Notes under the pieces: model-generated
What the model saw: only the letters and a program-made list of their open reading frames with translations
What the model was told of the DNA's origin: nothing
Databases searched by the model: none
Translations under genes and position numbers: made by a program
Shown: positions 27,061 to 55,738 of the stretch, piece after piece
Layout: each line of letters opens with the position of its first letter
Numbering within the stretch: position 1 is the first letter of the stretch
DNA from: Methanosarcina barkeri MS
GTDB lineage: Archaea > Halobacteriota > Methanosarcinia > Methanosarcinales > Methanosarcinaceae
DNA: 64,000 bases
Assembly (NCBI RefSeq): GCF_000970025.1
Contig: NZ_CP009528.1
Span: 496,001-560,000, forward strand
Direction: 5' to 3'

Positions 27061-29334
27061 TCACTTTGCCACTTTTATATATTTCCATTTTAATTTTGTA
27101 CTACTTCCTGCTGCATTTGTTGCTGTGAGTTTAACCGTGTAAGTTCCGGCAGATGAATATGTGTGTGTTGGACTCTTTTCTGTTGAATATTTACCATCTC
27201 CGAAATCCCATTTCCATGAGGTTGGCGATCCTTTGCTTGTCTCCGTAAATTTTACCTTTAGCGGAGCTTTTCCTGATAATGGCCAGCCCCAGAAATCTGC
27301 AGTTGGAGCTTGCGAAGTTCCTGTCACGGTTATATACTTTGATTTTGTTGCTGTGTTGATGCCTACAGCATTGGTTACTTTAAGGGTTACTGTGTACTTT
27401 CCTGCTTTTGAATACTTATGAGTTGGATTCTGGTGGAATGACTTTGTTCCATCTCCAAAATCCCATTTCCATTTCGTTGGTGATCCGGTACTTTTGTCAG
27501 TAAATTTAACGTTTAATGGTATTCTTCCTGAGGTTGGAGATGCAGAGAAGGCAGCAACGGGTTTTGATGTCACGGTTATATACTTTGATTTTGTTGCTGT
27601 GTTGATGCCTGCCGCATTGGTTACTTTAAGGGTTACTGTGTATTTGCCGGCTTTTGAATACTTATGCGTTGGATTCTGGTGGAATGACTTTGTTCCATCT
27701 CCGAAATCCCATTTCCATTTCGTTGGTGATCCGGTACTTTTATCCGTAAATTTAACGTTTAATGGTGATTTTCCTGAGGTCGGAGATGCAGAGAAGGCAG
27801 CAACGGGTTTTGATGTCACGGTTATATACTTTGATTTTGTTGCTGTGTTAATGCCTGCTGCATTGGTTACTGTAAGTTTAACAGTATAAACTCCTGCTTT
27901 TGAATACTTATGCGTTGGATTCTGGTGGAATGACTTTGATCCATCTCCAAAATCCCATTTCCATTTAGTGGGTGTTCCTGTACTTGTGTCGGTAAATTTA
28001 ACGTTTAATGGAACTCTTCCGGAAGTAGGAGATACAGAAAATGCAGCAACGGGTTTTGTTACAACTTTTATAGAATCTGCTTTTGTTACTGTGTTGCTGC
28101 CTGCAGAATTTGTTACTGTAAGTTTAACAGTATAAACTCCTACTTTGGAATACTTATGCGTTGGATTCTGTTTGGTTGAAGTTGTTCCGTCTCTAAAATC
28201 CCATTTCCATTTCGTTGGTGTTCCGGTACTTTTGTCAGTAAACTGCACTTTCATTGGGGCTTTTCCTGAGGTTGGAGATGCAGAGAAGGCAGCAGTTGGC
28301 AGGTTTGAACTGGTGAGAGTACCCATGTAGACATTGGGTTTTTCATTTTCCCAATCCGACCACACTATCTTATCACCATACAAATCAAATCCTAGACTAA
28401 TTGATGTATTATTAGTATGAGTTTCCTCTTGAGTTGAGAGGTTATACATGTAAAATCGGTCACCCAGCCAAACTATCCTGTCCTTGGAGATTGCAGGACC
28501 ATAATAAAATTTTGATCCGTTGGCAATTTGAGTTTCCTTCTTAGTGGAAAGATCATACATGTAGATCTCGGAGTGGTAATCTTCATCATCTCCCATGCGC
28601 CAATCTGCCCACACTATAATGTTATTGTCAATATCAGGACTGAATGCTGAATCGCTGCTGGAAATCCGAGTTACCTTCTGAGTGGAGAGATCGTACATTA
28701 TGATCTTACCCGGGCGTCCCTCCAGATGAGATGTATACACTATTATGTTACCGAAAAAAGCAAACTGATATATTGGCATATCGTCGATATGAGTTTCCTT
28801 CTGAGTGGAGATATCATAAATGCAATAATCATATGTGCCACCATACAGTATCCTGTTCCCGGAGATACACGGCCCGAAGGAAAAGTAACCAAAAAATATT
28901 GTTCTATTGGTTATCCGAGTCTCTTTGTGAGTGGAGAGATCGTACATGTATACATCAGATTCTTCCTCGTAAGAGTTATCATCTCGGTACCCATTATGCC
29001 AGTCCCGCCATACTATCCTGTCACCATATATAGAAGGACCCCATGCTGATCCACTGGTAGTAATTTGAGTTTCCTTCTGAGTGGAGATATTGTACATGTA
29101 AATATTGAAGGGTCCGTCATCCCGGTTCCCATTACGCTAGTCCGTCCATACTATTCTGTCACCATATATGGAAGGAACCCCTGCTGATCCACTGGTGGTT
29201 ATCTGAGTTTCATTGATAGTGAGCGAAGCGCCTGGCTCAGTAGTTGCGGATGCCGTAGATGAAACCAGAATTAAAAATAAAATCAGAACTGCTGATGCTA
29301 AGGCCACTGAATACGATTTTTTGTTAATTTTCAC
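27061..29334 (-). CDS. secreted beta-propeller/PKD surface protein with in-frame UAG at codon 66
   Basis: From a GTG at 29334 (AAGGAG upstream) the frame gives a signal peptide (about 1-32) and a propeller of IYGDRIVW/YMYDLSTQKET repeats. Five C-terminal PKD domains follow (each beginning like AAFSASPTSG), ending at IKVAK. Codon 66 (29137-29139) is TAG, at VWTD-TAG-RNGN, where sister repeats have Tyr or Trp. Frame, repeats and composition continue unbroken on both sides, with 757 codons before the stop. The UAG may be a nonsense mutation, or may be read as pyrrolysine as in Methanosarcina methyltransferases. No PGF-CTERM tail is present. PKD domains 3 and 4 are almost identical in DNA, a sign of recent duplication or conversion. 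Confidence 0.85.
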
Positions 29335-29789
29335 CTATCCTACTCCTTAATCTTTAATTTATTTTTCATATAAAAAATGTTAATAATTTAGATATATACA
29401 TTTTTAAACTTTGTTATTTAAGTTAAAAATTTAGGAAAATGTGTAATTTTAGAAAATTTGTTTTGAGAAGAAGAATAAGTTTGCAGTAAATCCGTACATA
29501 AATAGCAAAATTTTTCGGTATAAAAAAGATAAAAGAAAAACTTTTGAAAATTTCAAATGAGCTTTAAAAGAGTCAAAAAATTAGATAGAGAACGCTACTG
29601 AAAATCACAAAATTAAAATCTTTCTAAAAAATGACCAAAAAGCCGGATGAGCTCACTTTTAACTATCAAATCAACAACTTCAGGTAAGAAAACACTTTCA
29701 GATAAGAAATAAGGAACAATGAAAAAATGAATAAAAAGAGTGAGCAAAAGAGAAGAGAACAGTTTCCTGTTCACCTTCTTCTAGACATA
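29335..29789. other. AT-rich intergenic region between gltX and the surface-protein gene
   Basis: No gene is supported. The side near 29335-29420 should carry the promoter of the minus-strand surface protein. The rest is A-rich with no repeat that I can define. Confidence 0.5.
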
Positions 29790-31505
29790 TTATTTGTGGG
29801 CAAAGTAAGCCACAATTTCTTCTTCACTTACGGTATCTATCCTGCAAAAACCGAAGCGCTCAAACTGTACAATGTTGTCAAGCTCGGTTGCAATCCCCTG
29901 CTCACCGATACCGTTAAGATCGCCTTCGGGGCCGCGTACTTTCACATTTATTCCGTCAAGTGGGACCCAGTGGATGATTTTTGCCTTTGCTTTTTTAAGG
30001 GCTTCAAGAGAAACATCTGAGAGTTTTGCCTGAAGTGGGGAAAGAGAAGTAATCTCTATATTGCAGAAATCTTTTAAGCGGATAATAGAGCCCACTTCCA
30101 GCTTTTCGACATCCTCCGTGCAGACAAGTACTTTATTTCCTACAGCAATTTCTCTGAATCCTCTTTTATGGTCAGTAGGGTGAAGAGGAAGTTTAGCAAC
30201 TGTCGGTTCAGCATCCGTAATTTCCAGTTCTACCGGATTCCAGACAAAGAAATAGCGATTTGCAATAGGGTCCACGATTTTGCGGTTTTCGGCGTAGAGA
30301 GACTCCATGCTTATGCTTACGTCAGTCATTCCGACTCCCATCTCTATCATGAACTTCTTGAGAGCTTCGGCCTGGATTCCACGGCGCCGGATTGCTCTAA
30401 TTGTTGGAAGCCTCGGGTCATCCCAGCCGCTGTATTCTCCTGCTTCAATAGCTTTTCTCAGGGTACTCGTACTGAACTTTCCAAATTCGTGGATCTTGAC
30501 CCTGCCCCAGTTGGTTGTTCTCGGGTATTTCCAGCCGAAGTATTTGTAGATATAACCCTGCCGCTTTTCGCTGTCTATAAGGTCTTTACCCCGGATGATA
30601 TGGGTCATTCCCAGTTCGTGGTCTTCGATGGCCCCTGCAAAATCAAGAAGTGGCCAGACAATGTACTTGTTCCCAATTTCAGGGCGGGGATGCGACATCT
30701 TTCTTATCCTGAATGCTCCCCAGTCCCTCAGTGCAGGATCCTTGTGCTTTATATCGGTCTTGATCCTCAGTACTGCCTGCTGGTCTTCATATTCCCCGGC
30801 AAGCATCTTCTCCCAGTGCATAAGGTTTTCTTCAGGGCTTGTATCCCTGTGTGGGCAGGCCTGCTTTGCATCCTTAAACCGCTTGAAATCTCCTCCTTTA
30901 CAGAAGCAGACATAAGCCTTTCCCATCTCGATAAGTTTTCTTGCGTAATCGTAATACATAGGAAAATGATCAGAAGCATAGACAACCTGGTCAGGCACAA
31001 CCCCGAGCCATTTGAAGTCATCAAGATACCAGTCATAAGCTTGAAGCAAAGGTCGTTTTATATCAGGATCGGTATCATCGAAACGCAGGACAAATTTTCC
31101 TCCGTACATTTTCACATATTCGGAATTAACTACCATGCCTCTTGCACTGCCAAGGGTTGCAGGCCCGTTTGGATTCGGGGCAAAACGCATTACAACCTTG
31201 CCATTTTCTGCTCCTTCAAGAGGTTTTAAGCCTTTATCAGGTTCCTTTTTTACGCTAAGGGCTTCAATAAGTTCAGGGGCAATTTCCGAAAGCTTTGCCT
31301 CCCAGGTTTCAGGATTTCCCTTTGCAATCTCGGGAATAATAACTTTAAGAGCCTCAGATACTGCATTTGGGTCGGATCTGAGTTGAGGGCACTCCCCCAT
31401 TACTTTGCCCATTACAGCTTTGGGTTGGGGGGCTTTCCCATATTTTACAGCATTTTGATAGGCGTATTTTTCAATTGTCTTAAGATCTTCAGGACTTAAA
31501 GTCAT
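29790..31505 (-). CDS. gltX: archaeal glutamyl-tRNA synthetase with unusual signature motifs
   Basis: This protein of about 571 residues charges tRNA-Glu, and in archaea usually also tRNA-Gln. It also supplies Glu-tRNA to the heme genes upstream in the cluster. ATG 31505 is chosen because GGAGA precedes it by seven bases; an in-frame TTG at 31535 adds ten residues. The N-terminal archaeal helical domain leads to RFAPNPNGPATLGSARG, where the class I HIGH motif should be (here TLGS). LRFDDTDP follows, and the KMSKS site reads GKFSTSTLRKAI. The overall fold and the archaeal beta-barrel C-terminus look complete, so the enzyme is probably functional despite the altered motifs. Confidence 0.92.
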   Translation of the reverse strand: MTLSPEDLKTIEKYAYQNAVKYGKAPQPKAVMGKVMGECPQLRSDPNAVSEALKVIIPEIAKGNPETWEAKLSEIAPELIEALSVKKEPDKGLKPLEGAENGKVVMRFAPNPNGPATLGSARGMVVNSEYVKMYGGKFVLRFDDTDPDIKRPLLQAYDWYLDDFKWLGVVPDQVVYASDHFPMYYDYARKLIEMGKAYVCFCKGGDFKRFKDAKQACPHRDTSPEENLMHWEKMLAGEYEDQQAVLRIKTDIKHKDPALRDWGAFRIRKMSHPRPEIGNKYIVWPLLDFAGAIEDHELGMTHIIRGKDLIDSEKRQGYIYKYFGWKYPRTTNWGRVKIHEFGKFSTSTLRKAIEAGEYSGWDDPRLPTIRAIRRRGIQAEALKKFMIEMGVGMTDVSISMESLYAENRKIVDPIANRYFFVWNPVELEITDAEPTVAKLPLHPTDHKRGFREIAVGNKVLVCTEDVEKLEVGSIIRLKDFCNIEITSLSPLQAKLSDVSLEALKKAKAKIIHWVPLDGINVKVRGPEGDLNGIGEQGIATELDNIVQFERFGFCRIDTVSEEEIVAYFAHK

Positions 31506-54417: not shown

Positions 54418-55053
54418 ATGACAAGAGAAATTGAAGTTGAGTGCCCATCATGCTCCCCTGAAGAAGAGGTAGGGCACGAGGTTCTGAAAGAGGGGCAGAG
54501 TCCGCTTGTTCGCTGTCTGGAATGCGGGCAGGTGCATGCAGTGAAACTTAAAACCCCTAAATCCGTTAGTTTGAAAGTGATAGTCAGTAAGATGGACATT
54601 TCAGACACTTACAAAACTGAACTGGATTCCGAGACTGTCCTTCAGGTAGACGATGAGCTGGTTGTAGATGATGAGGAAACAGGAGTAGTGGTGCCTATTC
54701 TGATTACTGCTCTTGATGCAGGAGGAAAACGAGTCCTGATTGCCCGGGCAGAAGATACCGAGACAATCTGGGGCAGAGCCATTGATGAAGTGACCGTAAA
54801 ATTTTCCGCACAGTCCGGGACTGAAAAAACAGAAGTTCTTGAAAAACGTGTGCCTGGCGATTATGAATTTGTTATAGGAGCCGAAGAAAGAGTGGGGAAT
54901 AAACGCCTTTTCATCAATAAAATCAAGGTAAGAGACGGTGCATTCCGGTCCAGAAAAGGCGATGTTGTGCTTGCAAAATACGTAAAACGGATTTTTGCGA
55001 GAAAGAAATGGGAAGGTTCGGGTCAGCGTGAATTCCGAAGAGGGCCGTGGTAA
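54418..55053 (+). CDS. HVO_0476-family zinc-finger protein
   Basis: This protein of about 211 residues has an N-terminal zinc finger made by CPSC (about 7-10) and CLEC (about 32-35). Beta-rich domains follow, with [22 protein letters not shown] near 75 and [19 protein letters not shown] near 107, and the basic C-terminus reads [18 protein letters not shown]. It resembles the HVO_0476 family, in which no activity is established; RNA or ribosome association is plausible from the basic tail. ATG 54418 is preferred over a TTG at 54394. It overlaps the start of pcm by 26 bases. Confidence 0.82.
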
Positions 55054-55738
55054 AGAAAAAAGAGAGAAAGAAGAGGAAGAAAAACTCGAAGCAATGCGCA
55101 GGCGCCTTGTAGATAATCTTGAGGCTTACCTGCTGCTGAAAGATAACGTCCGCGAGGCTATGCTCCGTGTTCCAAGGCATAAGTTTGTTCCGGAATATGA
55201 GCAAAAAGCAGCTTATATCGACAGACCCCTTGAAATCGGACACGGGCAGACAATCTCTGCCCCGCATATGGTTGCGATGATGTGTGAACTCCTTGACCTC
55301 TCGGAAGGGCATAAAGTCCTGGAAATAGGAGCTGGGTCAGGGTATAATGCTGCAGTGATGGGAGAGCTTGTCGGAAAAAATGGGCATGTGTACACGGTTG
55401 AACGTATAAAAGCCCTTGCAAATTTTGCAAGGGATAACCTGAAAAAAACAGGATATAGCAATGTCACAGTGCTACTTGAAGACGGTTCAATGGGTTGTTC
55501 TTAGTATGCCCCTTATGACAGGATAGCTGTAACATGCGCAGCTCCTTATATCCCTGAGCCTTTGCTGGAACAGTTGAAGCCTGGAGGCATAATGCTTATT
55601 CCTGTGGGAGATTATTTTCAAGAGCTTTATAAAATTAAAAAAGACGGCAAGGGGCATATACATAAAAAGAAAACAGGCGAGGTCGTTTTTGTACCCCTGA
55701 TTGGTAAACATGGCTTCCGAAAAAGACTGGAATGCTAA
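55028..55738 (+). CDS. pcm: protein-L-isoaspartate O-methyltransferase with in-frame UAG
   Basis: Pcm repairs isoaspartyl residues by SAM-dependent methylation. The frame has [31 protein letters not shown] and the SAM loop [17 protein letters not shown]. At 55502-55504 it meets TAG within GSMGCS-TAG-YAPYDRI. The same frame continues with [32 protein letters not shown] and a C-terminus at 55738, all standard for the family, about 236 residues in total. TAG sits in a loop just before the conserved APYDR strand, where relatives vary. It may be a nonsense mutation or a pyrrolysine codon. Without readthrough the last third is lost. GTG 55028 is the likely start; TTG 54995 is the alternative. Confidence 0.9.

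Follow-up and report, generated by a model that had tools for sequence, protein, structure and literature searches.

The surface-protein gene and its in-frame TAG

The window analysed here is a stretch of 64,000 nucleotides from Methanosarcina barkeri MS (hereafter the host; contig NZ_CP009528.1, positions 496,001 to 560,000). On its reverse strand lies a surface-protein gene that is interrupted by a single TAG. Its features, in window positions, are listed below.

27061..29334, (-): surface-protein gene, 757 codons from GTG with one internal TAG; signal peptide, RIVW/beta_prop_Msarc propeller and five PKD domains
29343..29348, (-): AAGGAG, Shine-Dalgarno-like, 5' of the GTG start, read directly from the sequence
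29245..29334, (-): putative signal peptide, residues 1-30, ...VLILFLILVSSTASA, recognised by eye
28315..29229, (-): beta-propeller domain, approximately residues 36-340, from the AlphaFold2 model and PDB propeller matches
27064..28314, (-): C-terminal part with five PKD domains (Pfam PKD_4, 326 bits)
29137..29139, (-): in-frame TAG, codon 66 from the GTG, read in the sequence; TGG (Trp) in 7/7 homologues compared by codon alignment

The frame opens with GTG at 29334 (-), and the TAG at codon 66 is the only stop inside it; the remaining 756 codons are open, and coding sequence with homology flanks the stop on both sides. The sequence-only reading had described a 757-codon frame with an in-frame UAG at codon 66 and no other lesion, and this description holds. 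The ORF list made with table 11 represents the gene by the part after the UAG alone, from the ATG at 29097. An internal restart at this ATG was considered and rejected: a surface product would be unlikely to arise in this way because the signal peptide is dropped and no evident Shine-Dalgarno sequence is seen on inspection.

The N-terminus is hydrophobic, with cleavage likely after ...STASA at residue 30, and the AlphaFold2 model places a helix at residues 5-24, within the putative signal peptide. The UAG had been located just after the signal peptide, which is loose wording for a distance of about 35 residues between the cleavage site and the UAG. The propeller repeats score 184.6 bits against NCBIfam beta_prop_Msarc (TIGR04275), and they look like the RIVW repeats known from Methanosarcina surface proteins (PMC2447325). 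In the AlphaFold2 model, built on an alignment of four sequences, the propeller has a mean pLDDT of 79.8, and the PDB propellers that match it include 2gop, YncE and TolB. On the whole, the product has the beta_prop_Msarc repeats, the PKD domains and the putative signal peptide by which the Methanosarcina beta-propeller/PKD surface proteins are recognised. Propeller/PKD matches are numerous in the genome, and the gene is one of a large set of paralogues.

The copy number at the locus varies. Next to gltX, the sister species carries the gene twice in tandem (G030:C2:660977-665541), while the host has one copy (window 27061-29790). Because the coding part of the host gene resembles one sister copy and its upstream region the other, one copy was probably lost by recombination in the host lineage, and the remaining copy looks recombinant.

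Ancestry of codon 66

The codon alignment at codon 66 comprises seven homologues from five genomes, two of which (G030 and G004) give two copies each. Since TGG is found in 7/7 of them, TAG66 arose from a Trp codon by a single G-to-A transition in the host lineage. This agrees with the earlier remark that the Tyr and Trp codons of neighbouring repeats lie one base from TAG; the same reading had named alignment with orthologues as a check on its proposal, and the outcome goes against a shared UAG, none being present in any homologue compared. Among 31 Methanosarcina genomes, the nearest homologue is stop-free and has 88% identity over the first 340 residues, and a scan of genome contigs returned one homologue only, from M. 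spelaei (72%). Neutral Pyl acquisition of the Thg1 type is recognised by a single-step mutation of a sense codon still present in the homologues, and TAG66 shows this pattern. As for programmed readthrough, which is recognised by a conserved stop or a downstream cis element, neither was found in the homologues compared or in the RNA-fold check, and the sequence 3' of UAG66 has no special RNA fold (z = 0.19).

Residue 66 is placed by the AlphaFold2 model in a propeller loop that follows the strand 60-65. At the equivalent position, 25 such repeats of the sampled genome have M, N, Y, W, T, K, D, S and other residues. The claim that neighbouring repeats carry Tyr or Trp here is right in part: Trp is frequent within this protein, but the position is very variable across the 25 repeats. 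Because it varies so widely among sibling repeats, the loop position looks tolerant, and Pyl would probably be tolerated there. Among 28 pairs of homologues, the propeller gives dN/dS values between 0.24 and 1.15, a pace of evolution too fast to reveal selection after the mutation. Polarised changes on the gene's own branch (18 nonsynonymous and 6 synonymous) are indistinguishable from those on the sister branch (21 and 10).

UAG as a sense and stop codon in the host

The host genome (4.57 Mb, two contigs) has a complete pyrrolysine system, namely pylT (tRNA-Pyl), pylS, pylB, pylC and pylD, with PylS, PylB, PylC and PylD each over the NCBIfam cut-off. Both of its mtmB genes (2/2) carry one in-frame TAG, as expected. 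Because of this system and of the TAG in both mtmB genes, UAG in the host is to be regarded as an ambiguous sense/stop codon. It terminates 29 of 848 ORFs of at least 200 aa (3.4%) in a 1.66 Mb sample; about 4-5% is given for UAG terminators in Methanosarcina (PMC4153887), where the pyl cassette is also reported to be constitutively expressed (PMC4153887). In M. acetivorans, 20-30% readthrough with Pyl is reported for a UAG introduced into a reporter, and no special RNA element is required (PMC2933860).

Two further genes bear on the use of UAG as a sense codon:

54995-55738 of the window, (+): PCMT (protein-L-isoaspartate O-methyltransferase) gene; PF01135 spans the stop, 240 bits
55502-55504 of the window, (+): in-frame TAG of PCMT, the window's other amber
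G000:C2:3816591-3818339 (L131:16591-18339), (-): accessory ATP-dependent DNA ligase gene with two UAGs, codons 32 and 139

The sequence-only reading had counted two ambers in the window, and its first is very probably the TAG of PCMT. At least 10 other Methanosarcina species also have TAG at this codon, and the remaining species have a sense codon there. In the three species compared, dN/dS 3' of the TAG is 0.09-0.17, similar to that upstream. As early as 2005, the draft genome of M. barkeri included a PCMT among its Pyl candidates (PMC1242214). For the ligase, a search of the genus finds one TAG in nine other species, and the five that were aligned all have it at codon 32 (5/5). Codon 139 is TAG in the host only, with CAG or CAA in the other aligned species, and is best explained as a second UAG gained by a lineage-specific CAG-to-TAG change. 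Downstream dN/dS of the ligase against the five aligned species is 0.095-0.147. The host also has a second, intact ligase, and the accessory copy of the sister genome is decayed. A literature search on a UAG-bearing accessory DNA ligase found no paper. Overall, the conserved UAGs of PCMT and the ligase, with strong purifying selection downstream of both, support translation of UAG outside the methylamine methyltransferases in the host. The earlier suggestion of a tolerated or translated UAG is thus supported by the full pyl operon, a concrete cause that it had not named, and also by the mtmB TAGs, the rarity of UAG terminators and these conserved codons.

Other genes with in-frame TAG are also observed. 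A MatE transporter gene (L108:16069-17574) and a pyridine-nucleotide oxidoreductase gene (G000:C2 near 2520350, (-)) have one TAG each inside a Pfam domain. An IS66 transposase with in-frame TAG occurs in four copies (G000:C2:343324-344778, 1094595-1096049, 2197448-2198902 and 2654568-2655932), three of which are about 100% identical, so the element has spread together with its UAG. Two genes with in-frame TAG, MtbB-like and MttB-like, lie a few kb beyond the window at G000:C2 562550 and 566684; by length and UAG position we take their frames to be MtbB (355+111) and MttB (333+161). At another host locus, MtbB is confirmed by Pfam Dimeth_Pyl.

A genome count of interruptions by UAG versus UAA/UGA had been proposed as a check, and we carried it out on 1.66 Mb (36% of the genome), accepting stops spanned or flanked by a Pfam match or a homologue and excluding the methylamine methyltransferases. 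UAG interruptions are found in six families, i.e. the surface gene, PCMT, the ligase, MatE, the oxidoreductase and IS66, the last being counted though its stop separates two domains of a single transposase. There is one UAA interruption (a HATPase fragment) and one by UGA (an IS66 copy that also holds two UAGs). Against an expected UAG share of 38% of nonsense mutations, derived from codon usage with transitions weighted fourfold, 6/8 gives P = 0.04. The proposed excess thus appears in this count, but with two unverified UAA/UGA cases it falls to 6/10 and P = 0.14, and a P-type-ATPase-like fragment with UAA (2697820, recognised by eye), which was left uncounted, would weaken it further. Many of the candidates taken from coding potential proved to be neighbouring genes that share a frame, or antisense shadows of PKD repeats; these were discarded by Pfam or by eye. 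A homology-based comparison of interruptions with the sister genome covered 162 genes, in which interruptions were too few for a test. The excess of UAG is suggestive only, because the filters were chosen by hand and altered between rounds, one of them missing the surface gene itself; the conserved codons of PCMT and the ligase are to be taken as the stronger evidence.

Interpretation of UAG66 and relation to known systems

We consider it probable that UAG66 entered neutrally from a Trp codon in a redundant surface protein and is partly decoded as pyrrolysine; expression and readthrough of the transcript, Pyl at residue 66 and a share of full-length product are predicted. One transition in the host lineage turned a TGG in a propeller loop into TAG, and Pyl-tRNA and release factor would compete at this codon. 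The share of ribosomes that terminate would give a 65-residue stub, of about 35 residues after signal cleavage, while the remaining ribosomes would insert pyrrolysine at residue 66 and complete the 757-residue protein. Pyl at this variable loop position would probably be tolerated, and the change is likely neutral or nearly so. What counts against Pyl readthrough is that UAG66 is lineage-specific and that the family is large.

The same two facts fit a plain nonsense allele, i.e. a surface gene on its way to a pseudogene, with paralogues covering its function and Pyl readthrough incidental. Loss of the gene would be cheap because the family is large; moreover, its propeller is a fast-evolving domain and copies come and go, as the two tandem copies of the sister species and the single one of the host show. 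On the other hand, no second lesion has accumulated in 757 codons, genome-wide Pyl decoding makes UAG leaky by default, and other UAG genes of the host are still under selection downstream. We regard this alternative as unlikely, though it deserves serious weight, and it is compatible with neutral entry and partial decoding rather than exclusive of them.

It had also been proposed that readthrough at codon 66 controls secretion of the surface protein. If true, the Pyl supply, as set by growth on methylamines, would determine the amount of the protein through UAG66; its display would depend on Pyl-tRNA supply and the cell coat would respond to methylamine growth. The UAG is early enough for termination to leave almost no product, and the MtbB-like and MttB-like genes are near the window. 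The proposal is not supported, given the absence of the UAG from the homologues compared, the lack of a special mRNA fold downstream and the large paralogous family; the pyl cassette is moreover described as constitutive in Methanosarcina (PMC4153887), and we consider a regulated switch very improbable. Similarly slight is the chance of an assembly or sequencing error hiding a real TGG at codon 66: one genome of the host species was examined and every homologue compared has TGG, but the two-contig assembly is near-finished and 99.88% complete.

Under neutral entry with partial decoding, the surface gene would be a clear example of a Pyl-decoding archaeon absorbing nonsense mutations to UAG. 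PCMT and the accessory ligase, whose UAGs are kept across species under strong downstream selection, indicate that the sense use of UAG in Methanosarcina reaches far outside the methylamine methyltransferases. Genes of this kind are likely to be labelled broken by standard annotation.

Among known systems, MtmB, MtbB and MttB share with the surface gene an in-frame UAG in the same genome and the same pyl system. The UAG of the methylamine methyltransferases is conserved and catalytic, whereas that of the surface gene is a lineage-specific substitution in a loop. The RIVW/beta_prop_Msarc PKD surface proteins (TIGR04275; PMC2447325) have the same architecture and repeat family as the surface gene, which carries a UAG while the homologues compared do not. 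A further close parallel is Thg1 (tRNA-His guanylyltransferase) of M. acetivorans, whose UAG was gained by neutral evolution (Heinemann 2009, as related in the review PMC2933860). The two genes are alike in having a lineage-specific in-frame UAG that their homologues do not have, in a Pyl-decoding Methanosarcina and at a residue that is not essential. They differ in gene, codon and function, and also in that Pyl translation has experimental support in Thg1, according to the same review, and is inferred for the surface gene. By this analogy, decoding of UAG66 is probably the known mechanism of the Thg1 type, extended by drift to one more gene.
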